From Georgenia sp. TF02-10 (GTDB taxonomy: Bacteria > Actinomycetota > Actinomycetes > Actinomycetales > Actinomycetaceae): 64,000 bases of DNA. Position numbers and translations under genes: made by a program. The stretch is taken from NCBI RefSeq assembly GCF_022759505.1, contig NZ_CP094289.1, positions 3,286,001 to 3,350,000 on the forward strand. The letters are read 5' to 3'. The notes beneath the pieces are model-generated. The model had not been told where the DNA came from. It did not search any database and was given only the letters and a program-made list of their open reading frames with translations. How positions within the stretch are numbered: the first letter of the stretch is position 1; each line of letters opens with the position of its first letter. This document shows, piece after piece, positions 7,509 through 19,628 of this stretch.

Positions 7509-8261
7509 TCACCGGCCAGCGGTTCGGGAACCTGGTGATCGCTCGTCCGACTCGTCCGGCGCCCCGTGGCCGGTCCTGCCCGACTCACCCGCCACGTCGT
7601 CGAACGCAGCGGTCGCGCGCGCGACGAGCGCGGCGAACAGCCGGGCCCCCTCCTCGGCCGTGGCGCCGCGCGGGTCGCCCAGCACGCCGGTCGGGCTCAC
7701 GGCCCGCACACCCTCGGTCCGCAGGCGGGGCAGCAGCTCGGCGACCGGCTGGGTGACCCCGGCCGCCCGCGGGAGCGTGCGCACGCCCGCCGGGTCGAGG
7801 TGGAGCATCAACGAGGTCTCCGACCTGCCGGCGTGGGCATCCATCCCCGGCAGGCCGATGTGGTGCACCGCCAGGCGCCGGCCCTCCTGCCGGCAGACCT
7901 CCTGCGCGCCGGCCAGCGCCGCGGCGTTGCCGCCGTGCGCGTTCACCACGAGCACGACCGGCCAGTCCCGCGTGACGTGCCGGACGAGCTCGACGACGAC
8001 CGCCTGCAGGGCCGGCCCGCCGATCGACACCGTGCCCGGGAAGTCGGCGTGCTCCCCGCTCGCCCCGTAGCAGAGCACCGGGGCCAGCCCGGCGGCCGGG
8101 CGCTGCTCGTGGACCGCTGCCGCGACCCGCTCGGCGATGCGGGCGTCGGTGCTCAGCGGCAGGTGGGGGCCGTGCTGCTCCAGCGCCCCCACCGGCAGCA
8201 CGAGCACCCGGCGGGTGGCCCCGTCGACCTCGGTCCACGTCGCCTCGGTCAGCCTCACCAT
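7509..8261 (-). CDS. mftE: Mycofactocin biosynthesis peptidase MftE (creatininase family)
   Basis: The 250-residue creatininase-family metalloprotein has the metal-binding motifs VGALEQHGPHLPLSTD (E28, H30 and D39), GEHADFPGT and VNAHGGN. In known mycofactocin pathways MftE cuts the MftC-modified peptide and releases the C-terminal Val-Tyr-derived heterocycle. It is transcribed leftward, seven bases after the regulator mftR, so the two form one unit divergent from mftABC. The assignment rests on the family motifs plus the location beside mftA. Confidence 0.93.
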   Translation of the reverse strand: MVRLTEATWTEVDGATRRVLVLPVGALEQHGPHLPLSTDARIAERVAAAVHEQRPAAGLAPVLCYGASGEHADFPGTVSIGGPALQAVVVELVRHVTRDWPVVLVVNAHGGNAAALAGAQEVCRQEGRRLAVHHIGLPGMDAHAGRSETSLMLHLDPAGVRTLPRAAGVTQPVAELLPRLRTEGVRAVSPTGVLGDPRGATAEEGARLFAALVARATAAFDDVAGESGRTGHGAPDESDERSPGSRTAGR

Positions 8262-8268
8262 CCCCCGC

Positions 8269-8934
8269 TCACCGGTGTCCTCCGGCCGCGCCCGCCGCCG
8301 CCGCGGCGGGGAGGTCCATCCGCTCCAGCAGCCGGAACGCCTCGTCGATCAGCTCGGTGAGCTGCGCCCGGTCGTCGTCGAGCCAGCGGCGGTAGGCGGC
8401 GACGGCGGCCCCGAGCGCACACTCGCCGACCACCTGCGGGTGCAGGTCCTGCGGTGCCTGGTGCAGCCGCCGGGCCGCGAAGCCGGCCACCGCCCGCCGC
8501 CAGCCGGCGAACTTCAGCATCGAGTGGGCGAGCAGGTCGGGGGCGCCGAGGATGAGCCGGAGCCGGGCGCGGTGGTGCTCGGTCTCCGTGGCCGGGACCC
8601 GGTTGAACTCCACGACGGCGAGCCGGAGGGCCGTCATCATCGGCGCCTCCGCGGGCATCTCGTCCAGCGTCGCCCGCAGCCGGTCGACCTCGCGGTCGAA
8701 GTCGCCCCAGACGACGTCGGCCTTGGTGGGGAAGTAGCGGAAGAAGGTGCGCCGGGAGATCCCGGCCGCGTCGGCGATGTCCTGCACGCTGGTGCGGGCG
8801 TACCCGGACCGGGTGAACATCTCGATGCCCAGGCGCTCGAGGTCCCGGTGGGTCGTCGCGGGCGGGCGGCCGGGCCGGGGCGGGGCGGCAGCACCACCCG
8901 CCGCGGGGCTGCGCATGTCGGGCATGCCTCCCAT
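8269..8934 (-). CDS. mftR: TetR-family repressor of the mycofactocin locus, MftR
   Basis: A TetR helix-turn-helix is visible as TSVQDIADAAGISRRTFFRYF, with a helical C-terminal domain and a total of 221 residues. In mycobacteria MftR represses the mft genes and responds to long-chain acyl-CoA; the same role is inferred here from synteny. I prefer ATG 8934, because GAGGG sits seven bases upstream and because the longer start at 8970 would lie within the divergent mftA promoter and palindrome. The start at 8970 adds 12 residues and cannot be excluded. mftE follows directly. Confidence 0.9.
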   Translation of the reverse strand: MGGMPDMRSPAAGGAAAPPRPGRPPATTHRDLERLGIEMFTRSGYARTSVQDIADAAGISRRTFFRYFPTKADVVWGDFDREVDRLRATLDEMPAEAPMMTALRLAVVEFNRVPATETEHHRARLRLILGAPDLLAHSMLKFAGWRRAVAGFAARRLHQAPQDLHPQVVGECALGAAVAAYRRWLDDDRAQLTELIDEAFRLLERMDLPAAAAAGAAGGHR

Positions 8935-8947
8935 CTCACCACCCTCG

Positions 8948-8986
8948 TTGCGTTTGGCACAGAGTGTCATATAACGTGCATCACAC
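8948..8986 (+). promoter_or_regulatory. mftA promoter with overlapping 23-bp operator-like palindrome
   Basis: A plausible -35 (TTGCGT, 8948-8953) and -10 (TATAAC, 8970-8975) are spaced by 16 bases. An imperfect 23-bp palindrome at 8964-8986 (outer arms GTGT and ACAC, inner AT/AT, 7 of 11 pairs matching) covers the -10. A second smaller symmetry, TGGCAC with GTGTCA, occupies 8955-8969. The region lies between divergent mftR and mftA, which fits autoregulation by MftR. Binding is inferred. Confidence 0.6.
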
Positions 8987-9039
8987 CTTGCGCCGGCGCA
9001 CGGAGCCGGGCGTCACCGGAAGTCCGAAGGAGGACCACC

Positions 9040-9129
9040 ATGAGCAACCCCATCGAGGACCAGAACGCCGTCCAGGCCCAGGACCTGCTCGAGGACGTCT
9101 CGATCGACGGCATGTGCGGTGTCTACTGA
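9040..9129 (+). CDS. mftA: Mycofactocin precursor peptide MftA
   Basis: This 29-residue peptide ends in IDGMCGVY, the invariant C-terminus of the mycofactocin precursor, in which Val and Tyr become the redox cofactor core. The leader is acidic (EDQNAVQAQDLLEDVS). A strong AAGGAGG site at 9027-9033 precedes ATG 9040. The last bases overlap the mftB start by 11 bases. It is shorter than most automatic ORF cut-offs and is easily missed. Confidence 0.97.
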   Translation: MSNPIEDQNAVQAQDLLEDVSIDGMCGVY

Positions 9130-9466
9130 CACCAGTGCCACCCCCGCCGCGGGGCCGGGCCTCAGGTTCGACCCCGCCGCGCGGTGGCGCGTCCACCCCG
9201 CGGTGGCCGTCCGGCCCGAGCCCTTCGGCGCGCTCCTCTACCACTTCGACACCCGCCGCCTGACCTTCCTCAAGGACCGCCGCCTGCTCGAGGTCGTCAC
9301 CACCCTGGCGTCCCACGCCACCGCCCGCGAGGCGTGCACCGCCGCGGGCGTCGGCCCGGCCGAGCAGGCCGGCTTCGACGCCGCGCTGCAGCGCCTCGTC
9401 GACATCCACATGCTCGCCCCCGCCGAGCCCGTCAGCAGCGCAGAGCCCGAGGTACTCCCCCGATGA
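9119..9466 (+). CDS. mftB: Mycofactocin peptide chaperone MftB
   Basis: The 115-residue protein has the fold of a RiPP recognition element, with the conserved segment HPAVAVRPEPFGALLYHF and then DTRRLTFLKDRRLLEVV. MftB binds the MftA leader and delivers it to MftC. The GTG start at 9119 lies inside the last codons of mftA and the stop overlaps the mftC start (ATGA), so A, B and C are translationally chained. The function follows from family and position. Confidence 0.94.
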   Translation: MSTDTSATPAAGPGLRFDPAARWRVHPAVAVRPEPFGALLYHFDTRRLTFLKDRRLLEVVTTLASHATAREACTAAGVGPAEQAGFDAALQRLVDIHMLAPAEPVSSAEPEVLPR

Positions 9467-10872
9467 CCATCGCCCCACCCGCTCCCCCGGCCGCCCCGAC
9501 ACCCCGCCCCAGCCTGATCGACCACTTCGAGAAGGGGCTCGACTCCCCGATCTGCCTGACCTGGGAGCTGACCTACGCCTGCAACCTCTCGTGCAGCCAC
9601 TGCCTCTCCGCCTCCGGCCGCCGCGACCCGAACGAGCTGAGCACCGAGCAGTGCAAGGCCGTCATCAACGAGCTGCAGCGCATGCAGGTCTTCTACGTCA
9701 ACATCGGCGGCGGTGAGCCCACCGTCCGGCCCGACTTCTGGGAGATCGTGGAGTACGCCACCGCCCACGACGTCGGCGTGAAGTTCTCCACCAACGGGGT
9801 GCGGATCACCCCCGAGGCCGCGCGCCAGATCGCCGACAACGGCTACATCGACGTCCAGATCTCCCTCGACGGCGCCACCGCCGAGGTCAACGACGCCGTC
9901 CGCGGACCGGGGTCCTTCGACCTGGCCGTCCGGGCGATGGAAAACCTGCACGCCGCCGGGGTCGAGGGGTTCAAGATCTCGGTGGTCATGACCCGGCACA
10001 ACATCCCCCAGCTCGACCAGTTCAAGGCCCTCGCCGACCGGTACAACGCCACCCTCCGGATCACCCGGCTGCGCCCGTCCGGCCGCGGCGCGGACGTCTG
10101 GGACGACCTCCACCCGCGCCCGGAGCAGCAGCGCGAGCTCTACGACTGGCTGGTCGCGCACGGCGAGGGGGTCCTCACCGGCGACTCCTTCTTCCACCTC
10201 TCGGCCTACGGCGAGACCCTGCCCGGCCTGAACCTGTGCGGCGCCGGACGGGTGGTCTGCCTGATCGACCCGGTCGGCGACGTCTACGCCTGCCCGTTCG
10301 CGATCCACGACGAGTTCAAGGCGGGCAACGTCATCACCGACGGCGGCTTCCAGCACGTCTGGCGCCACGCGGACCTCTTCACCGAGCTGCGCGTGCCCCA
10401 GCAGGGCGGGGCCTGCTCGACCTGCCAGCTCTTCGGCTCCTGCCGCGGCGGGTGCATGGCCGCCAAGTTCTTCACCGGCCTCCCGCTCGACGGGCCCGAC
10501 CCCGAGTGCGTCCGGGGCTTCGGGGAGGAGCTGCTCGGCTCCCGCGCCGACACCGCCCAGCTGCCCCGGCCGACCGGGGACCACAGCCACCGCACTGCAC
10601 CGCCGCGGCCGCGGACGAAGAGCCGCCCGGTGCCGGTGACGATCGGCCGGACCAACCCCGGCCGGCCGCCGGTCAGCGCGTGCGAGGAGAACCCGCTCGC
10701 CGGCTTCACCCCGGACCGGCCCCCGGTGGGCGCCTGCGGGGAGAACCCCCTCGCCGGCTTCGCCCCGGACCGTCCGCCGGCCGGCGCGAGCCTCGGCCCG
10801 CTGGCCGGGACGACGGCGGCCCCGTCCGACGGCGGCTGCGGCTGCGGTGCCGGCGGGTGCGGCTGCGGCTGA
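9463..10872 (+). CDS. mftC: Mycofactocin radical SAM maturase MftC, with repeat-bearing C-terminal extension
   Basis: This radical SAM/SPASM enzyme decarboxylates and cyclises the C-terminal Val-Tyr of MftA. The radical SAM cluster ligands are C40, C44 and C47 (CNLSCSHC). The SPASM region carries the Cys set within LCGAGRVVC, VYACPF and CSTCQLFGSCRGGC. ATG 9463 overlaps the mftB stop. At 469 residues it is longer than I expect for the family. Roughly the last 70 residues hold an imperfect 20-residue repeat (RPPVSACEENPLAGF, RPPVGACGENPLAGF, RPPAGAS...PLAG) and a Cys/Gly tail CGCGAGGCGCG. The tail is not part of the catalytic fold and its role is unknown. Confidence 0.95.
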   Translation: MTIAPPAPPAAPTPRPSLIDHFEKGLDSPICLTWELTYACNLSCSHCLSASGRRDPNELSTEQCKAVINELQRMQVFYVNIGGGEPTVRPDFWEIVEYATAHDVGVKFSTNGVRITPEAARQIADNGYIDVQISLDGATAEVNDAVRGPGSFDLAVRAMENLHAAGVEGFKISVVMTRHNIPQLDQFKALADRYNATLRITRLRPSGRGADVWDDLHPRPEQQRELYDWLVAHGEGVLTGDSFFHLSAYGETLPGLNLCGAGRVVCLIDPVGDVYACPFAIHDEFKAGNVITDGGFQHVWRHADLFTELRVPQQGGACSTCQLFGSCRGGCMAAKFFTGLPLDGPDPECVRGFGEELLGSRADTAQLPRPTGDHSHRTAPPRPRTKSRPVPVTIGRTNPGRPPVSACEENPLAGFTPDRPPVGACGENPLAGFAPDRPPAGASLGPLAGTTAAPSDGGCGCGAGGCGCG

Positions 10873-10939: not shown

Positions 10940-11788
10940 ATGGCAGGACGAGTCGAGGGCAAGGTTGCGTTCATCTCCGGCGGTGCCCGCGGTCAGGGGC
11001 GCAGCCACGCCGTGCGCCTGGCCCAGGAGGGCGCCGACATCATCACGTTCGACATCTGCAAGGACGTCGAGCACGTCCCCTACGCCGGGCCGACCGCTGA
11101 GGACCTCGCGGAGACCGTCCGCCAGGTGGAGGCGCTCGATCGCCGCATCATCGCCCGCGAGGCGGACGTGCGGGACTTCGACGCCATCAAGGCGATCGCC
11201 GAAGAGGGCTTCGCCGAGCTCGGCCGCATCGACATCGTCTCCGCCAACGCGGGCATTTCCGGCGAGATGGCGGAGGCCGACGTCATGTCCGAGGGCGGTT
11301 GGCAGACGATGATCGACATCAACCTCACCGGCGTGTGGCACACCGTGAAGGCGGCGATCCCGCACATCAAGGCCGGCGGCAACGGCGGATCGATCGTTCT
11401 CACTAGTTCGCTCGCAGGCCTCAAGGGCATGGGCAACATCTCGCACTACGTCTCGGCCAAGCACGGTCTGGTCGGCCTCATGCGGTCCCTCGCCATCGAG
11501 CTCGCCCCTCACAACATCCGCGTCAACTCGATCCACCCCACCCAGGTGGACACGCCGATGATCATGAACGAGGCCACGAAGAAGCTCTTCCGGCCCGACC
11601 TGGAGAGCCCGACTGACGAGGACTTCGCGGCGACGTCGCAGGCGATGAACTCGCTGCCGATCCCATGGGTGGAGCCCGTGGACATCTCCAACGCGCTGCT
11701 CTTCCTCTCCTCTGAGGAGGGGCGGTACATCACGGGCGTACCGCTCGCCGTCGACGCAGGCGCCGGCCTGAAGTCGGTCGTCTACTAG
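10940..11788 (+). CDS. Mycofactocin-coupled SDR family oxidoreductase (1)
   Basis: The 282-residue short-chain dehydrogenase has a nucleotide-binding GGARGQGRSH, the segment NAG, and the catalytic pair Ser (LTSS) and Tyr-x-x-x-Lys (YVSAK). The insert after the second strand (DVEHVPYAGPTAEDLAETV, then DRRIIAREADVRD) is typical of the mycofactocin-coupled carveol-dehydrogenase-like family, whose NAD stays bound and is re-oxidised through mycofactocin. ATG 10940 follows an AAGGAGG-like site. It closely resembles the next gene. The substrate is unknown. Confidence 0.92.
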   Translation: MAGRVEGKVAFISGGARGQGRSHAVRLAQEGADIITFDICKDVEHVPYAGPTAEDLAETVRQVEALDRRIIAREADVRDFDAIKAIAEEGFAELGRIDIVSANAGISGEMAEADVMSEGGWQTMIDINLTGVWHTVKAAIPHIKAGGNGGSIVLTSSLAGLKGMGNISHYVSAKHGLVGLMRSLAIELAPHNIRVNSIHPTQVDTPMIMNEATKKLFRPDLESPTDEDFAATSQAMNSLPIPWVEPVDISNALLFLSSEEGRYITGVPLAVDAGAGLKSVVY

Positions 11789-11904: not shown

Positions 11905-12741
11905 ATGGCTGGACGAGTAGCAGGCAAGGTCGCGTTCATCTCCGGCGCGGCACGGGGCCAGGGACGGAGCCACGCCGTTCGACTCGCGGAGGAGGGCGCG
12001 GACATCATCGCGTTCGACATCTGCAAGGACGTGGAGACCAACCAGTTCCCGGGACCCACCCCCGAGGACCTCGCCGAGACGGTCCGGCAGGTTGAGGCGC
12101 TGGACCGCCGGATCATCGCTCGCGAGGCCGACGTCCGGGACTTCGATGCCGTGAAGGCCGTGGCGGACGAGGGCTTCGCCGAGTTGGGCCGCGTTGACAT
12201 CGTCGCCGGCAACGCCGGCATCACCGGCGAGCTGGCGCAGGCCGACGTGATGTCGGAGGTCGGCTGGCAGACCATGCTCGACGTCAACCTCACCGGTGTC
12301 TGGCACACCGTGAAGGCGGCCGTGCCGCACCTCAAGGCCGGCGGCAACGGGGGATCGATCATCCTCACGAGCTCGACGGCGGGCATCAAGGGGTACGAGA
12401 ACCTCTCGCACTACGTGGCGGCGAAGCACGGCGTCGTCGGTCTCATGAAGTCGCTTACCCTCGAGCTGTCCAGGGAGAGCATCCGGGTCAACACGATCCA
12501 CCCCACGAGCGTCGACACGGACATGATCCAGAACGAGGCGTTCTACCAGCTCTTCCGGCCCGATCTGGACAACCCGGGCAAGGAGGACCTCCGGGAAGTC
12601 ATGCTCGGCATGAACGCCCTCCCGGTCCCGTGGGTCGAGGCGATCGACATCTCCAACGCGCTGCTCTTCCTCGCCTCCGACGAGGCCCGCTACATCACGG
12701 GCATGGAGCTCAAGGTCGACGCCGGACAGCTGACCAAGTAG
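11905..12741 (+). CDS. Mycofactocin-coupled SDR family oxidoreductase (2)
   Basis: The 278-residue paralogue of the preceding gene has GAARGQGRSH, NAG, LTSS and YVAAK in the expected order, and the same family insert (ETNQFPGPTPEDLAETV). Differences cluster in the C-terminal substrate-binding half (FRPDLDNPGKEDLREVMLG). GAAGGAG precedes ATG 11905. High similarity to SDR 1 suggests a local duplication followed by substrate divergence. Confidence 0.92.
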   Translation: MAGRVAGKVAFISGAARGQGRSHAVRLAEEGADIIAFDICKDVETNQFPGPTPEDLAETVRQVEALDRRIIAREADVRDFDAVKAVADEGFAELGRVDIVAGNAGITGELAQADVMSEVGWQTMLDVNLTGVWHTVKAAVPHLKAGGNGGSIILTSSTAGIKGYENLSHYVAAKHGVVGLMKSLTLELSRESIRVNTIHPTSVDTDMIQNEAFYQLFRPDLDNPGKEDLREVMLGMNALPVPWVEAIDISNALLFLASDEARYITGMELKVDAGQLTK

Positions 12742-12779: not shown

Positions 12780-13598
12780 ATGGCGGGACGCATGGACGGC
12801 AAGGTCGTCTTCATCACGGGCGCCGCGCGCGGGCAGGGTCGGAGCCACGCGCTCCGCCTCGCCGAGGAGGGCGCTGACATCATCGCGGTCGACATCTGCG
12901 AGGCGATCCCGGGGGTGACGGCCTATGAGGGCGCGACGGAGGAGGACCTCGCGGAGACCGTCCGCCAGGTCGAGGCGCTGGACCGGCGGATCGTCGCCGA
13001 GCAGGCCGACGTCCGCGACCTAGCCCGCCTCAAGGAGGTCGCGAGCACCGGAGTCGCCGAGCTCGGCGGCCGTCTGGACGGCATCGTCGCCAACGCGGGC
13101 ATCGACATCTTCAACCACTGGCAGGACTTCACGGAGGAGGAGTTCCGCACGACGATCGACATCAACCTCGTCGGGGTGTGGCACACGGTCATGGCGGCCG
13201 CACCGACGATGCTCGAGGCCGGCAACGGCGGGTCGATCGTCCTGATCTCCTCGGCGAACGGCATCAAGGCCGGTCCGTTCAACGTCGCCTACAACGCGTC
13301 GAAGTTCGCGGTGACCGGCATGGCGAAGTCCTTCGCCCAGGAGATGGGCAAGGACCGTATCCGGGTGAATTTTATCCACCCCGGTCCGGTGGACACCCAC
13401 ATGGGGCAGGTCCTCACGGCGTTCGAGAAGCTGGCAGACGACAACCCGGGCATCGTGTCAATGCTCAACACCTGGCTGCCGGACACGTTCATGCAGCCGC
13501 GCGAGATCTCGAACGCGGTGCTCTATCTGCTGTCCGACGAGTCGTCGTTCACGACCGGCCTGTCGATGGCGGTCGACGCCGGCATGTCGCAGTACTGA
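12780..13598 (+). CDS. Mycofactocin-coupled SDR family oxidoreductase (3)
   Basis: The 272-residue SDR has GAARGQGRSH, VANAGID, LISS and YNASK. It keeps the mycofactocin-type insert (YEGATEEDLAETVRQVEALDRR) but is clearly more distant from SDR 1 and 2 than they are from each other. AGAGGAG precedes ATG 12780. The gene leads into the MoxR/VWA pair with a 39-base gap, so all are likely on one transcript. Confidence 0.9.
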   Translation: MAGRMDGKVVFITGAARGQGRSHALRLAEEGADIIAVDICEAIPGVTAYEGATEEDLAETVRQVEALDRRIVAEQADVRDLARLKEVASTGVAELGGRLDGIVANAGIDIFNHWQDFTEEEFRTTIDINLVGVWHTVMAAAPTMLEAGNGGSIVLISSANGIKAGPFNVAYNASKFAVTGMAKSFAQEMGKDRIRVNFIHPGPVDTHMGQVLTAFEKLADDNPGIVSMLNTWLPDTFMQPREISNAVLYLLSDESSFTTGLSMAVDAGMSQY

Positions 13599-13637: not shown

Positions 13638-14639
13638 ATGAGCACGCAGTCCACCGGCATACGCGACACCGGGTACGTCACGCGCGTGCGGGCGCACATC
13701 CGGGAGCGCGTCGTCGGTCGGGAGCACGAGCTCGACCTGGTCCTCGCCGCGGTGGCGGCCGGACGGGACATCCTCCTCGAGGGGCCGCCCGGCACGTCGA
13801 AGTCCACGCTCTTGCGCGCGATCGCCGAGGAGTGGGGGATCCCGTTCGTGCTGGTCGAGGGCAACGCCGACCTCACGCCGTCGAAGCTCATCGGCGGCCA
13901 CGACCCCGCGCGTGTGCTCCGGGAGGGCTACCGGGACGAGAACTTCGTCGACGGCCCGCTCGTGCGGGCCATGCGCGAGGGCGGCTTTCTCTACATCGAG
14001 GAGTTCAACCGGGCCCCCGACGACACCATCAACACCCTCCTGACGGCGATGGCCGAGCGCGAGGTGACCGTCCCGCGCGTCGGCACGGTCACCGCGCTGC
14101 CGACGTTCCGGGTCATCGCCACTATGAACCCCTACGACAACGTCGGCACCACTCGTCTGTCCTCCTCCGTCCACGACCGGTTCAACCGGCTCGTCGTCGA
14201 CTACCAGGACGCAGCCTCGGAGCGGGAGATCGTCGCCCTGCGCACGGGCTTCTCGCCCGACGCCGACGTCGACGCGGGCTCGAGCATTTCGGCGGATCTC
14301 GCCGCCGTGCTCGTCACGGACGCGGTCGCCCTCACGCGCGCGACCCGCGACCACGAGAACACCCGCCAGGGCAGCTCCGTGCGCGGCGCGATCGACCTCG
14401 CCCTCGTCGCCGCCCAGCTGCTCGCCCTGCGCGGCATCACCAGCCCCGGCGACGGTCGGGTGACCGCCGAGGACACCCCGCGCCGGCGCTACGCCGAGTC
14501 GATGCGGGATGCCGCGCTCGTCGCCCTGTCCGGCCGCATCCACGTCGACGAGGCCGCTGCGACCACCCCGGAGAGGGTCATCCACCAGATCTGGGAGGAC
14601 CACTTCATCCTCCTGCCTGCAGCAGCCGAGCCGGGATGA
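13638..14639 (+). CDS. MoxR-family AAA+ ATPase within the mycofactocin locus
   Basis: The 333-residue AAA+ protein has Walker A GPPGTSKST (near residue 53), Walker B FLYIEEFNRAP, the sensor-1 segment VIATMNPYDNVGT, and an arginine-finger region SSSVHDRFNR. MoxR ATPases work with VWA-domain partners (RavA-ViaA, NorQ-NorD, CoxD-CoxE) as chaperones that insert metals or cofactors into oxidoreductases. Here the VWA partner follows directly. The location between mycofactocin-dependent dehydrogenases and mftD suggests a client among these proteins; that is inference. Confidence 0.9.
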   Translation: MSTQSTGIRDTGYVTRVRAHIRERVVGREHELDLVLAAVAAGRDILLEGPPGTSKSTLLRAIAEEWGIPFVLVEGNADLTPSKLIGGHDPARVLREGYRDENFVDGPLVRAMREGGFLYIEEFNRAPDDTINTLLTAMAEREVTVPRVGTVTALPTFRVIATMNPYDNVGTTRLSSSVHDRFNRLVVDYQDAASEREIVALRTGFSPDADVDAGSSISADLAAVLVTDAVALTRATRDHENTRQGSSVRGAIDLALVAAQLLALRGITSPGDGRVTAEDTPRRRYAESMRDAALVALSGRIHVDEAAATTPERVIHQIWEDHFILLPAAAEPG

Positions 14640-14663
14640 AGGGATGTCCAGGCCGACTCGCCG

Positions 14664-15614
14664 GTGCGTCGTCGGTCCGAGAAGTCACAGGTGCGCCCGC
14701 GCCGGTCCAAGGTGCTCGACCAGGAGCCCACGGTCTTCGAGCCCGCGACCGGTGAGGGCGGCGGACAGGTGCTCATCGCCACCGGGGGGAGTCGTGACAA
14801 GGCCGCCGCTCGCGCCAGGGGAACGGCGGCGCCGGGCGAAACCGGCGAGGAGGGTGCGGTCGTCGACCTCGCGGACCTCGACGAGGCCGCCGACGCCGAC
14901 GCACTGCGACGCGCCCGCGAGATCGCCGCGGCACTCGCGATCCCACAGCCGCCGAGGCGGGCAACCGCACGGCGCGGTCTCGGCGACCTCGAATCGTTGC
15001 CCTTCGCCGGGGCCGCGGACGACATCGACCTCGAGGCGACGATCGACAACCTGGTCTCCAACCCCGTGCCCGACGCCCGCGACATCGTGGTGCGCGAGCG
15101 CATCCGGCAGCACCGGGCGGTCGTCCTCGTCATCGACGTCTCCGGCTCCATGCGCGGGGACCGCGTCCGATCCGCAGCGGCGGCCGTCGGTGCGCTCGTC
15201 GGTGAGCTTGTCCGCGACGACCTGGCCGTCATCGCCTTCTGGTCCGACGCGGCGATCCTCGCGCCCATGGGCCGGGGGGTGCCCGCCAACCAGATCCTCG
15301 ACCTGCTCGTACGCATCCCGGCACGCGGACTCACCAACGTCGAGCTCCCCCTACGGCTCGCCCGCGACGAGCTCGCCAAGACCCTCGGTGCCGAGGGGCG
15401 GGTCCTGCTGCTTTCCGACTGCGTGCACAACGCCGGGCCCGATCCCCGGAGCGTCGCGGCGACCCTGCCGAGGCTGGACGTCCTGCTCGACACCTCGGGC
15501 GAAAAGGACGCGGAACTGGGGCGCGACCTGGCCCGGCTGGGGCGCGGCAGGCTGGAGACCGTCCGTACGCACCGGGACCTCCCCGCGGCCCTCTCCCGGA
15601 TCCTGGGTCCGTGA
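14664..15614 (+). CDS. VWA-domain protein, partner of MoxR (CoxE-like)
   Basis: The protein has about 316 residues. Its N-terminal half is charged and low in conserved motifs, with a segment DLADLDEAADADALRRAREI. The C-terminal half is a von Willebrand A domain with the MIDAS motif DVSGSM, a later Thr in GLTNVELPLRLA, and an Asp in LLLSDCVHN. VWA partners of MoxR ATPases bind the client protein. The GTG at 14664 is the first start in frame but lacks a good ribosome-binding site, so the start is uncertain. The gap to the moxR stop is only 24 bases. Confidence 0.82.
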   Translation: MRRRSEKSQVRPRRSKVLDQEPTVFEPATGEGGGQVLIATGGSRDKAAARARGTAAPGETGEEGAVVDLADLDEAADADALRRAREIAAALAIPQPPRRATARRGLGDLESLPFAGAADDIDLEATIDNLVSNPVPDARDIVVRERIRQHRAVVLVIDVSGSMRGDRVRSAAAAVGALVGELVRDDLAVIAFWSDAAILAPMGRGVPANQILDLLVRIPARGLTNVELPLRLARDELAKTLGAEGRVLLLSDCVHNAGPDPRSVAATLPRLDVLLDTSGEKDAELGRDLARLGRGRLETVRTHRDLPAALSRILGP

Positions 15615-15739: not shown

Positions 15740-16978
15740 ATGGCCAACCCGTGGTTCGAGAGCGTCATCGAGGCGCGGCGCCGCGCCAAGCGCCGCCTGC
15801 CGAGCTCCGTCTACATGGCCCTCGTCGCCGGCTCCGAGCGCGGGAGCACCCTGCGCGACAACATCGGCGCCTTCGCCGAGCTCGGCTTCGCCCCGTTCGT
15901 GACCAACCTGCCGGCCGACCGCGACCTCTCGACGACGATCATGGGCCAGGAGGTCGCCTTCCCGGTGATGATCTCGCCCACCGGGGTCCAGGCCATCCAC
16001 CCCGACGGGGAGGTCGCCGTCGCCCGCGCCGCCAACAACCGCGGCGCGGCGATGGGGCTCGGCGGCTTCGGCTCCAAGCCCATCGAGGAGGTGATCGCCG
16101 CCAACCCCAAGACCTTCTTCCAGACCTACTGGACCGGCACCAAGGACGCGATGCTGCACCGCATCGAGCGGGCCCGGGCGGCCGGGGCGAAGGGCCTGAT
16201 CGTCACGCTGGACTGGACCTTCGGGTACGGGCGCGACTGGGGCAGCCCGGAGATCCCCCAGACGATGGACCTGAAGACGATCGTCAAGTTCGCCCCCGAG
16301 ATCATCCTCGGCGGCAAGTTCGCCTACCTGATGGACTACGCCAAGACCCTGCGGCCGCCGGAGCTCACCGTGCCGAACATGCAGCTGCCCGGCCAGCCGG
16401 CCCCGGGGTTCTTCCAGGCCTACGGGGAGTGGATGCAGACCCCCCAGCCCACCTGGGACGACGTCGCCTGGCTGCGGCGGGAGTGGGGCGGGCCCTTCAT
16501 GGTCAAGGGGATCACCCGGGTCGACGACGCCAAGGCCGCCGTCCAGACCGGCGCCACCGCCATCTCGGTGTCCAACCACGGCGGCAACAACCTCGACGGC
16601 ACGCCCGGCACCATCCGGCTGCTCCCCGCGATCGCCGACGCCGTCGGGCACGAGGTCGAGGTGCTGATGGACGGCGGCATCCGCCGCGGGTCCGACGTCG
16701 CCAAGGCGCTCGCCCTCGGGGCCCGCGCCGTCCTCATCGGGCGCGCCTACCTGTGGGGTGTCGGCGCCAACGGCCAGGCCGGCGTCGAGAACGTCCTGGA
16801 CATCATGCGCGACGGCCTCAGCGCCGCGATGCTCGGGCTCGGCAAGAGGTCGGTGCACGACCTCTCGCCCGCGGACCTGCTCATCCCGCCCGGCTTCGCC
16901 CGCACCCTCGGCACCCCCGAGGGCCACCTGTACGGCGCACCGTCGCTCGGCGCACAGGAGATGCACCCGTCCCACTGA
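15740..16978 (+). CDS. mftD: Mycofactocin biosynthesis FMN oxidoreductase MftD
   Basis: The 412-residue protein is of the FMN-dependent alpha-hydroxy-acid dehydrogenase family. The catalytic His lies in SNHGGNN, FMN contacts are suggested by MDGGIRRGSDVAKAL and the preceding Lys in FMVKGI. In mycofactocin biosynthesis MftD oxidatively deaminates the MftE product to give the redox-active keto-amide (premycofactocin). ATG 15740 follows AGAGGA. The last codons lie inside the first unit of a tandem repeat, so the C-terminus LGAQEMHPSH is probably recent sequence. Confidence 0.94.
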   Translation: MANPWFESVIEARRRAKRRLPSSVYMALVAGSERGSTLRDNIGAFAELGFAPFVTNLPADRDLSTTIMGQEVAFPVMISPTGVQAIHPDGEVAVARAANNRGAAMGLGGFGSKPIEEVIAANPKTFFQTYWTGTKDAMLHRIERARAAGAKGLIVTLDWTFGYGRDWGSPEIPQTMDLKTIVKFAPEIILGGKFAYLMDYAKTLRPPELTVPNMQLPGQPAPGFFQAYGEWMQTPQPTWDDVAWLRREWGGPFMVKGITRVDDAKAAVQTGATAISVSNHGGNNLDGTPGTIRLLPAIADAVGHEVEVLMDGGIRRGSDVAKALALGARAVLIGRAYLWGVGANGQAGVENVLDIMRDGLSAAMLGLGKRSVHDLSPADLLIPPGFARTLGTPEGHLYGAPSLGAQEMHPSH

Positions 16979-17073
16979 CGGGGCGCAGCAGATGTACCCA
17001 CCCACCGACCGGGGCGCAGGAGACGCGCCCCACCCATTGACCGGGGCGCAAGAGATGTGCCCCACCGAATGAG
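16949..17073 (+). repeat. Four degenerate ~32-bp tandem repeats at the end of mftD
   Basis: Units beginning GGCGCA occur at 16949, 16982, 17013 and 17045 (spacings 33, 31 and 32). Each reads approximately GGCGCA, then a purine-rich CAGGAGATG-like core, then CCC/CACC and a TGACC-like end. The first unit includes the mftD stop codon. The array fills almost the whole gap to the fourth SDR gene. Function is unknown. Confidence 0.75.
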
Positions 17074-17089: not shown

Positions 17090-17908
17090 ATGGGCAACAG
17101 CCTCGAGGGCAAGGTCGCCTTCATCACCGGAGCGGCCCGCGGCCAGGGCCGCGCGCACGCCGTCAAGATGGCCAGCGAGGGGGCGGACATCATCGCCCTC
17201 GACCTCGCCGGCCCCCTCCCCTCGGTCGTGTACGACTCGGCCACGCCCGAGGACCTCGCGGAGACCGCGCGCCTCGTGGAGGCGCAGGACCGCCGGGTCG
17301 TCACCGCGCAGGGCGACGTGCGTGACCTCGCCCGGCTGAAGGAGGTCGTCGAGCAGGGCATCGCCGAGCTCGGCCGGCTCGACATCGTGGTCGCCAACGC
17401 CGGCATCTGCCAGCCCGCCTCGTGGGACGAGATCACCGAGGAGGACTTCCGCAACACCCTCGAGGTGAACACCTTCGGCGTCTGGAACACCGTCATGGCC
17501 ACCGCCCCGCACCTGGTGAGCGCCGGCAACGGCGGCTCGATCATCCTGACGAGCTCCTACGCCGGGAAGAAGATGCAGCCGTTCATGGTCCACTACACGG
17601 CGTCCAAGCACGCCGTCGTCGGGCTCACCCGCGCCTTCGCGGCCGAGCTGGGAGTACACAACATCCGGGTCAACTCCGTCCACCCCGGGGCGGTCGCGAC
17701 CGGCATGACGGGCGACGCGATGATGGCGGCGATGGCCCGGGCTTCCCAGCGGAACCCGAAGCTGGACCAGATGGGCCAGACGTTCATCGAGCCCAACTGG
17801 ATGGAGGCGGACGCCATCGCCGACGCGGTCGCCTTCCTGGCCTCGGACGCGGCCCGCAACATCACCGCCGAGCAACTGAGCGTCGACAAGGGCATGCAGC
17901 ACTTCTGA
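17090..17908 (+). CDS. Mycofactocin-coupled SDR family oxidoreductase (4)
   Basis: The 272-residue SDR carries GAARGQGRAH, VANAGIC, LTSS and YTASK, and the family insert VVYDSATPEDLAETARLVEA. ATG 17090 is chosen for the GAGAGGAAG site just upstream and because it begins the conserved fold. The upstream in-frame start at 17057 lies within the repeat array. It lies between mftD and mftF and is separated from mftF by a strong hairpin. Confidence 0.91.
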   Translation: MGNSLEGKVAFITGAARGQGRAHAVKMASEGADIIALDLAGPLPSVVYDSATPEDLAETARLVEAQDRRVVTAQGDVRDLARLKEVVEQGIAELGRLDIVVANAGICQPASWDEITEEDFRNTLEVNTFGVWNTVMATAPHLVSAGNGGSIILTSSYAGKKMQPFMVHYTASKHAVVGLTRAFAAELGVHNIRVNSVHPGAVATGMTGDAMMAAMARASQRNPKLDQMGQTFIEPNWMEADAIADAVAFLASDAARNITAEQLSVDKGMQHF

Positions 17909-18058: not shown

Positions 18059-18152
18059 GGGCGCGAGGTGATGCGGCGGCGGGCGACGGCGGCCGATGGA
18101 CGGCCGGCGCCGTGGGCGAGCAGCGGCAGTGACAGCAGAACGGAGGCATCGT

Positions 18153-19628
18153 TTGCCGGTGGCGGAGCAGACCGGGACGACGGCGCGGCGGGGCCTACGG
18201 GCGCCGAGCGGCACGCTGCCCGCGGGCACCCGGGTCGCCTGGGACCGGCGCGCCCGGCTCCGGCAGGGCGGGGAGTTCGTGCTCGGCGGGGCGCCCTGGG
18301 GCGTCGTCCGGCTCACCCCGCCGGCGCAGCGCTTCGCCCGCCGCGTCCGCGACGCCGGCCCGGCGGGCCTCGTGCCCGCGGGCCCCCTCGAGCGCCGGGC
18401 GGCCGACCTCCTGCTCGACCGGGGCATCGTCCACCCCGTCGTCGCGCCCCGGCCGGCCGGGCCGGAGGTCACCGTCGTCATCCCCGCCCACGACCGCCTC
18501 GACCTGCTCGAGGCCTGCCTGCGCGGGCTCGGCGGCCTGGACGTCCTCGTCGTCGACGACGCCTCCCACGACGCCGACGGCGTCCGCCGGCTCGCCGAGC
18601 GGTACGGGGCACGGCTGGTCCGCCACCCCGTCAACCAGGGGCCGGGCGCCGCCCGGAACACCGGCCTGGCGCACACCGACGCCCCGGTGGTCGCCTTCCT
18701 CGACTCCGACTGCACCGCCGAGCCGGGCTGGCTCGACGGGCTGCTCCCCCACTTCGACGACCCCCGGGTCGGCGCCGTCGCGCCGCGGGTGCGCCCGCGG
18801 CACGCCGGCAGCTCCGTCCTCGGCCGGCACGAGGACGCCCGGTCCTCCCTGGACATGGGGCGTCACCCCGCGCTCGTCCGGCACGGCGCCATGCTCGGCT
18901 TCCTGCCCTCGGCAGCGCTCGTGGTCCGCCGCGACGCCCTGGCCGGCGGCGCCTTCGCGGCCGCGCTGCGGGTGGGCGAGGACGTGGACCTGGTGTGGCG
19001 GCTGGTCGACGCCGGGTGGCACGTCCGGTACGACCCGAGCGTGCGGGTCGAGCACGAGGCCCGGCTCCGCCCCCTCGCCTGGGCCCGGCGCCGCTACGAG
19101 TACGGCACCTCGGCCGCCGACCTCGACCGGCGCCACCCGGGCCGGCTGGTGCCGGTGCGGGTCTCCGCCTGGAACCTCGCCGCCGCCGCGCTCCTGCTGG
19201 CCGGCCGGCCGGCGCCCGCCGCCGTCGTCGCCGGCACCGCCGCCGCGCTGCTCGGGACGCGGCTGCGCCGGGCGGGCGGCCGGCCGGGCATGGCGGCGGC
19301 GATCGTCGCCAAGGGGTTCGCCGCGGACGCCCTCGCGGTCGGGCACGCGCTGCGCCGGGAGTGGTGGCCGGTGGGCTGGGCCGCCCTGCTGCTGGCCGGC
19401 CGGTCGCGGGTGGCCGCCGCCGCGGCCGTCAGCATGCTGGCGCCGCTGGTCCTGGAGCTGGTCACCGCCCGCCCGGCGGTCGACCCGCCCCGCTACGCCC
19501 TGCTCCGGCTCGTCGAGGACGCCGCGTACGGCAGCGGGGTCCTGGTCAGCGCGCTCCGCGGGCGCCGGGCGGGGCCGCTCCGGCCGGAGGTCCGCCTGCC
19601 GTTCCGGGGCGCGGGGCGCCGCGGCTGA
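18153..19628 (+). CDS. mftF: Mycofactocin glycosyltransferase MftF
   Basis: The product is a family-2 glycosyltransferase that decorates premycofactocin with a beta-1,4-glucan chain. The N-terminal region (VAWDRRARLRQGGEFVLGG) is typical of MftF. The GT-A core has VTVVIPAHDR, the DDAS segment, DSDCTAEPGW (DxD-like) and GEDVDLVWR. Hydrophobic segments near the C-terminus suggest membrane association. I prefer the TTG start at 18153, since CGGAGG at 18141-18146 is six bases upstream. GTG 18129 and the ATG 18096 give longer N-termini of low-complexity sequence. The result is 491 residues. Confidence 0.9.
   Translation: MPVAEQTGTTARRGLRAPSGTLPAGTRVAWDRRARLRQGGEFVLGGAPWGVVRLTPPAQRFARRVRDAGPAGLVPAGPLERRAADLLLDRGIVHPVVAPRPAGPEVTVVIPAHDRLDLLEACLRGLGGLDVLVVDDASHDADGVRRLAERYGARLVRHPVNQGPGAARNTGLAHTDAPVVAFLDSDCTAEPGWLDGLLPHFDDPRVGAVAPRVRPRHAGSSVLGRHEDARSSLDMGRHPALVRHGAMLGFLPSAALVVRRDALAGGAFAAALRVGEDVDLVWRLVDAGWHVRYDPSVRVEHEARLRPLAWARRRYEYGTSAADLDRRHPGRLVPVRVSAWNLAAAALLLAGRPAPAAVVAGTAAALLGTRLRRAGGRPGMAAAIVAKGFAADALAVGHALRREWWPVGWAALLLAGRSRVAAAAAVSMLAPLVLELVTARPAVDPPRYALLRLVEDAAYGSGVLVSALRGRRAGPLRPEVRLPFRGAGRRG

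Follow-up and report, generated by a model that had tools for sequence, protein, structure and literature searches.

A MoxR–VWA protein pair beside mycofactocin-dependent dehydrogenases is a predicted ATP-driven remodelling machine for nicotinoproteins

MoxR-type ATPases paired with VWA proteins have been described as metal inserters (PMC13036017, excerpts). With NorQ–NorD, NO reductase becomes active only if ATP is hydrolysed and the MIDAS is intact (PMC9976466, excerpts), and the mode of action proposed is one of twisting and stretching (PMC13036017, excerpts). CbbQO is, by the PDB title of 6l1q, a Rubisco activase. The classes of dehydrogenase linked to mycofactocin were listed by Haft in 2011, together with a Haloterrigena cluster, and the words AAA, ATPase and von Willebrand are absent from the examined text of that paper (PMC3023750, in part). 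The studied short-chain enzymes (SDRs) of the mycofactocin class bury their NAD, which showed no exchange in NMR tests and could leave only if the enzyme changed its conformation substantially (PMC5264612, excerpts). Here we report that a MoxR–VWA pair recurs directly beside mycofactocin-linked dehydrogenases across Actinomycetota, and we consider what such a pair may do for them.

The window, a stretch of 64,000 nucleotides from Georgenia sp. TF02-10 (contig NZ_CP094289.1, positions 3,286,001 to 3,350,000), contains a mycofactocin (mft) cluster. Its gene order is mftE-like and mftR on the minus strand, then mftA, mftB, mftC, SDR1, SDR2, SDR3, the ATPase gene, the VWA gene, mftD, SDR4 and mftF on the plus strand:

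7509..8261, minus strand: mftE-like gene of the creatininase family (Pfam Creatininase, 192.1 bits)
8269..8970, minus strand: mftR, TetR-type regulator with an MftR C-terminal domain (Pfam TetR_C_14, 122.8 bits)
9040..9129, plus strand: mftA, precursor peptide of 29 residues ending in IDGMCGVY (TIGR03969, 35.4 bits, cut-off 25)
9119..9466, plus strand: mftB, assigned by position and by similarity to a neighbour genome, without a family-library scan
9463..10872, plus strand: mftC, mycofactocin radical SAM maturase (TIGR03962, 635.8 bits)
10940..11788, plus strand: SDR1, mycofactocin-coupled SDR, predicted client (TIGR03971, 399.3 bits; the frame opens at 10847, start placed by alignment)
11905..12741, plus strand: SDR2, mycofactocin-coupled SDR, predicted client (TIGR03971, 401.1 bits)
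12780..13598, plus strand: SDR3, directly upstream of the ATPase gene, predicted client (TIGR03971, 335.7 bits, cut-off 300)
13638..14639, plus strand: MoxR-type AAA+ ATPase, 333 residues (Walker A codons 13782–13808; Pfam AAA_5, AAA_3 and bpMoxR above cut-off)
14664..15614, plus strand: VWA protein, partner of the ATPase, 316 residues, GTG start (MIDAS DVSGSM codons 15135–15152; Pfam VWA_2 above cut-off)
15740..16978, plus strand: mftD, pre-mycofactocin synthase (TIGR03966, 658 bits)
17090..17908, plus strand: SDR4, downstream of mftD, predicted client (TIGR03971, 351.9 bits; the frame opens at 17057)
18096..19628, plus strand: mftF, glycosyltransferase (TIGR03965, 401.5 bits)

The original prediction placed a MoxR–VWA pair at 13638–15614 on the plus strand of this cluster, and the coordinates, motifs and short gaps were confirmed. 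Both frames are open, and 39 bases separate SDR3 from the ATPase gene, 24 the ATPase gene from the VWA gene and 125 the VWA gene from mftD. The three mycofactocin SDRs described upstream of the pair are SDR1–SDR3; the cluster holds a fourth TIGR03971 SDR, after mftD.

About two and a half copies of a motif like PPVSACEENPLAGF occur in the C-terminal tail of the window MftC (within 9463–10872), and the final stretch of the protein is rich in Cys and Gly. The MftC tails of L008, L009, L010, L017, L018, L021, L032, L068 and L106 each show a single copy of a PPVSACEENPLAGF-like motif, and that of L075 shows none. Of ten loci with which a GMC (MftG-like) gene had been grouped, tblastn recovered the gene in L008 and L009 only; the sole relative of the L008 GMC oxidoreductase found in the window genome (G000:C1:3801163-3802626, 41% identical) sits about 0.5 Mb from the mft cluster, which would place an MftG-like partner outside it.

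The window ATPase scores above the Pfam cut-offs for AAA_5 (102.6 bits), AAA_3 (67.7) and bpMoxR (43.6), and both GPPGTSKST and IEEFNR are present. Its predicted model (pLDDT 82.4) adopts a MoxR-like overall fold, the best match being MoxR 2r44 (Z 20.7, 257 residues aligned, 3.2 Å), with NorQ, BchI, CbbQ and RavA at Z 16 to 17. The partner protein scores 50.5 bits on VWA_2, above the cut-off, and retains DVSGSM. In its model (pLDDT 74.0) the VWA domain starts at about residue 149 (Z up to 19.7) and the N-terminal part is poorly predicted. A PDB search with the VWA profile returned weak matches only, and no NorD chain is among the 50 matches listed in the VWA fold comparison, which says nothing on relatedness. 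The curated GvpN model reached 81.1 bits, below its cut-off of 266.8. Three other MoxR genes are encoded in the window genome, 29–34% identical to the window ATPase over the aligned parts, and none lies near any listed mycofactocin-linked dehydrogenase.

Across the family, the Walker A and B motifs, sensors 1 and 2 and the arginine fingers are kept in 63–64 of 64 ATPase domains; five fragment rows (two of L031 and one each of L025, L099 and L012) were left out of this count and of the ATPase tree. Of 65 aligned VWA domains, 64 have the MIDAS residues D, S, S and T and 62 have the last D, the remainder being mostly gaps. In 12 loci, including L026 (8987–10909), L072–L076 and L078, the ATPase and VWA parts share one reading frame, which suggests a fused protein; binding of the VWA protein to an ATPase ring is putative, inferred from adjacency and from these 12 shared frames. 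Two ATPase genes or domains stand in tandem before the VWA part in L069, L070 and L035, where the ring may be composed of two kinds of subunit.

To collect relatives, we aligned two VWA proteins and used the alignment to scan the collection of species genomes; the scan depends on two short peptide patterns and returned 28 loci. Neighbours were taken from six-frame profile matches; gene calling trained on the window is poor in genomes of other composition. In all 28 loci the VWA gene is immediately preceded, on its own strand, by an ATPase gene or its remnant, and damaged copies are cut at a contig edge (L025), shortened (L012) or interrupted (L031). At the interrupted locus, from Geodermatophilus (8873–9919), the VWA gene is open, and the ATPase gene has either decayed or suffers from a sequence error. 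The block SDR–ATPase–VWA–mftD recurs in a genome of the same family (G021, L007) and in Citricoccus, Agromyces and Microbacterium loci, a recurrence that is more than chance. Within the stretches scanned, mftC is present in 11 loci, at least one of mftB to mftF in 14 and none in the other 14. By our own SDR profile, applied at a threshold of 60 bits and distinct from the NCBIfam models, an SDR lies directly upstream of the ATPase in 21 of the 28 loci (with fragments of 146 bits in L012 and 63 bits in L034), including eight of the 14 without mft genes, with Rhodococcus, Gordonia and Geodermatophilus as hosts. Seven loci have no adjacent dehydrogenase. The neighbours are a monooxygenase and a P450 in L013, an amidohydrolase in L026 (with an SDR 7.7 kb away on the other strand), a haloalkane dehalogenase in L035 and, upstream, a NUDIX gene in L028; L015 has mftD downstream and its SDR at a distance of 4.7 kb upstream, L025 stands at a contig edge, and L029 is the seventh.

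The plasmid collection yielded two records with the pair (L036 and L037), both large linear Rhodococcus plasmids. On RQCS_2 of Rhodococcus qingshengii, an annotated mycofactocin-coupled SDR is followed by the MoxR gene and then the VWA gene; on pmega_1 of R. ruber, four annotated mycofactocin-coupled SDRs surround the pair, on the other strand. In both records the pair sits among catabolic genes with mycofactocin SDRs, and the stretch shown holds no mft genes. Thus, the pair can travel with the dehydrogenases.

We then took a census of 396 Actinomycetota genomes drawn evenly from the phylum, using 31 aligned VWA proteins that had been selected for VWA similarity and not for gene neighbourhood (threshold E 1e-20); in the large searches, 4–6 candidates per genome were scored. 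The VWA family occurs in 31 genomes and MftC (TIGR03962) in 53. Counted, like the other census numbers, without correction for phylogeny, 27 of the 31 VWA genomes carry mftC, compared with 53 of 396 overall (Fisher p 4.5e-23), and 24 of 26 genera with the VWA family do so. This bears out the proposal that a MoxR–VWA module is tied to the mycofactocin system; no report of a link between such a pair and mycofactocin dehydrogenases was found in the literature searched, which leaves out most subscription papers, and excerpts of the MftG paper do not name the pair (PMC11778925). Two of the four VWA genomes without mftC (G209 and G389, 89 and 87% complete) have an NDMA-dependent alcohol dehydrogenase (ADH) directly upstream of the pair, and the other two (G080 and G344) give weaker, divergent VWA matches without an adjacent NDMA-dependent ADH. 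In 18 of the 27 genomes a single contig carries both pair and mftC, no more than about 12 kb from each other; two genomes show a distance of about 20 kb, and in the remaining seven the two are widely separated or sit on separate contigs. In G105, mftC, the ADH and the ATPase stand at a contig end that cuts off the VWA gene.

Surroundings were analysed for all census matches but the fragment G334:C50. The 36 match rows gave 34 units once the two pieces in G422 and the two in G334 were merged. In 31 of these 34, the gene immediately preceding the pair in the same orientation encodes a mycofactocin-linked dehydrogenase, no more than 130 bp away as measured from the profile matches. This upstream neighbour is a zinc NDMA-dependent ADH in 24 units (all 24 places exceed the TIGR03989 cut-off, as do ten scanned singly) and a TIGR03971 SDR in five; in two others it is an SDR above the TIGR04504 and NF040491 cut-offs. 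The three exceptions are L081 and L098, which are divergent, sit on long branches and have no adjacent dehydrogenase, and L099, at a contig edge. Three genomes (G362, G090 and G273) each contain a pair beside SDRs and a second pair beside an ADH. Ten units with a dehydrogenase neighbour have no mft genes in the stretch (L069, L070, L071, L073, L076, L079, L082, L089, L092 and L097). The original prediction had named the SDRs or MftD as the clients and had counted pairs away from mft loci against a mycofactocin role. Such pairs do occur, and their neighbour is mostly the same dehydrogenase class, which favours the dehydrogenase half of that guess over the MftD half. The SDR assignment stands in widened form, as the commonest census neighbour is the zinc ADH and not an SDR.

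As a control, the AAA_3 model was run on 26 of the 27 genomes with both pair and mftC (G334 left out), genomes picked by VWA match and not by neighbour, with two TIGR04504 places added to the dehydrogenase list. The 88 matches split into 57 of at least 168 bits and 31 of at most 70 bits. The 31 low-scoring matches are the ATPase family of the window pair, in 29 units, two of which have tandem ATPases. Each of the 31 has a listed dehydrogenase no more than 1.5 kb away; for the 57 other MoxR matches in these 26 genomes, no listed dehydrogenase comes within 2 kb, and a single match has one within 20 kb (at 13.6 kb).

The link between the pair and the dehydrogenases is strong: the family is well defined, its motifs are intact, and it keeps recurring beside dehydrogenases of three curated families, which represent both the SDR and the zinc MDR fold. 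The pair is a real, recurrent module, and we propose that it probably serves as a dedicated machine that uses ATP to remodel mycofactocin-dependent nicotinoprotein dehydrogenases; its clients in the window genome would be the four TIGR03971 SDRs of the cluster. A single enzyme lineage as client was rejected, the pair-bearing dehydrogenases being scattered over the trees in no single clade. In a quick tree of 67 ATPase rows, switching between SDR and ADH as neighbour calls for three changes over 52 labelled rows; all trees are quick searches with long-branch warnings.

By analogy with NorQ–NorD and CbbQ–CbbO, the ATPase would form a ring, the VWA protein would dock on it and grip the dehydrogenase through the MIDAS metal ion, and ATP hydrolysis would pry the closed dehydrogenase open. 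The neighbours are united by their link to mycofactocin and, as far as the SDRs have been studied, by a non-exchanging NAD; from these traits, the opened site might allow NAD(H) to be inserted, exchanged or rescued where no exchange occurs alone, or mycofactocin to dock. The NAD step taken by itself, an opening for loading, exchange or rescue of NAD(H), is a tentative reading. Equally tentative is its fuller form, a possible nicotinoprotein activase that opens dehydrogenases with non-exchangeable NAD, so as to load it, swap it or free the enzyme from dead-end states, and that was recruited twice, as a MoxR type in Actinomycetota and as a chelatase type in haloarchaea.

A somewhat unlikely alternative is that the pair serves not the bound NAD but mycofactocin delivery or the electron path, acting on mycofactocin docking or on a re-oxidising partner. 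Both client folds use mycofactocin, and the pair co-occurs with MftC. Across 21 ADH-type units, ATPase distances correlate at 0.92 with those of the VWA protein and at 0.85 with those of MftC, compared with 0.67 for the adjacent ADH (0.36 once MftC is accounted for, partial correlation, p 0.001). The pair thus keeps close to the mft lineage of its host, and the adjacent enzyme is more variable, a pattern that also fits a role tied to mycofactocin itself; the MftC correlation is, however, also expected from shared host ancestry, and 26 of the 53 mftC genomes are without a VWA match.

Less probable still is metal insertion, by which the pair would load zinc into NDMA-dependent ADHs as NorQ–NorD inserts iron. 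The published description of MoxR–VWA pairs as metal inserters (PMC13036017, excerpts) speaks for it, as does the prevalence of the zinc family among adjacent census dehydrogenases (24 of 31). SDRs, however, take that place in seven census units (five TIGR03971 and two TIGR04504) and in most discovery loci, and TIGR03989 finds no match at 1e-100 in the window genome. Mycofactocin-coupled SDRs are not known to hold a catalytic metal. An opening for NAD(H) fits better than metal insertion because the client class spans both zinc enzymes and these SDRs.

It is very improbable that the pair is a hitch-hiker, carried along in gene blocks and serving an unrelated client. Gene order is common to close relatives, and ten loci or units have no adjacent dehydrogenase, but chance is hard to credit for an association that holds for three families of dehydrogenase, in several gene arrangements, with the two proteins fused or separate, on plasmids and for a different pair in haloarchaea. 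Maturation of MftD or another biosynthetic enzyme, suggested by the pair directly preceding mftD in the window and several relatives, is the least probable reading and was rejected, since many units have a dehydrogenase directly upstream with no mftD in the stretch and the VWA family is missing from those same 26 mftC genomes. The likely client of the remodelling machine is the dehydrogenase class, and not MftD, because adjacency to dehydrogenases recurs across Actinomycetota and, with a different AAA+/VWA pair, on two haloarchaeal plasmids.

The haloarchaeal case comes from the mft plasmids of Haloterrigena turkmenica and Halolamina (L169 and L170). On each, a single strand carries a VWA gene and then an AAA gene, about 8 kb after mftC, followed by three (Haloterrigena) and four (Halolamina) annotated mycofactocin-coupled SDRs. 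On TIGR03971 the first of the Haloterrigena SDRs reaches 324.7. Membership of these pairs in the window family was rejected, the four proteins scoring 17–26 bits against the window profiles; unrelated MoxR paralogues reach 54–69 bits on the window ATPase profile. The Haloterrigena AAA and VWA proteins are instead of magnesium/cobalt chelatase type (486 and 658.7 bits on TIGR02442, below the cut-off of 779.45). No large chelatase subunit is annotated in the two stretches shown, and the pair could still have a chelatase role. If real, this would be a second, independent recruitment, seen in two records only. Electron-transfer flavoprotein and ferredoxin genes lie between mftF and the chelatase-like pair on both plasmids.

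The machine is an option, not a rule. The VWA family is present in 27 of 53 mftC genomes (28 with G105) and so is not a core component; those without a match at E 1e-20 (26, or 25 if G105 is counted as having the pair) include all 8 genomes of group f66 and 13 of the 14 of group f19. TIGR03971 is found in 32 of the 396 genomes and TIGR03989 in 58, 50 of them above the cut-off, and 40 gene regions of these two families, away from known pairs or mostly from pair-less genomes, had no window-type ATPase in the short stretch around them. Together, the mftC genomes without VWA and the many TIGR03971 and TIGR03989 genes without an adjacent pair argue that the pair is not generally required. Four of 12 mftC plasmid records were examined; no pair was present in the stretch shown of a Thermomicrobium mft plasmid region with two NDMA-dependent ADHs or of a Streptomyces mft plasmid region of FadH/OYE type.

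A machine beside both the SDR and the zinc ADH versions makes two questions on dehydrogenases with permanently bound NAD directly testable: how they acquire the cofactor, and whether their inactive forms are rescued. A mycofactocin-dependent client would be a new class for AAA+/VWA machines and would widen the known work of MoxR–VWA pairs beyond metal centres and Rubisco. We conjecture that it may also explain the difficulty of obtaining some mycofactocin-dependent dehydrogenases in active form outside their hosts.

Several described systems resemble this pair in part. MftG is likewise an optional gene that co-occurs with mft (PMC11778925, excerpts), but it is an oxidoreductase of the GMC superfamily and not an ATPase pair. 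The I and D subunits of magnesium/cobalt chelatase form an AAA+/VWA machine of the type found beside the haloarchaeal mycofactocin SDRs, whereas the window ATPase and VWA protein score 44.6 and 27.1 bits on TIGR02442 (cut-off 779.45). CoxD–CoxE is also an ATPase–VWA pair, and the CoxE-like VWA model (PF05762) gives a borderline 26.3 bits, just under its cut-off of 26.4; the window cluster, in contrast, has no CO dehydrogenase genes. RavA–ViaA shares the MoxR fold (3nbx, Z 16.2, 245 aligned) and a VWA partner, but the curated RavA model gives 19.6 bits on the window ATPase against a cut-off of 681. NorQ–NorD combines a MoxR-type ATPase (NorQ 9qh7, Z 17.4, 150 aligned, 2.3 Å) with a MIDAS-bearing VWA partner. 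NorD is, however, a protein of about 70 kDa with a large N-terminal domain (PMC9976466, excerpts), compared with 316 residues for the window VWA protein, and NorQ–NorD inserts iron into nitric oxide reductase, whereas the neighbours of the window pair are mycofactocin-linked dehydrogenases, with no nitric oxide reductase genes among those scanned. CbbQ–CbbO has a different client, no Rubisco gene having been seen in the neighbour scans made; it too is built on a MoxR-type ATPase (6l1q, Z 16.7, 150 aligned), and as an activase that works on an enzyme, and not only as a metal inserter, it is the closest functional analogy to the role proposed here.
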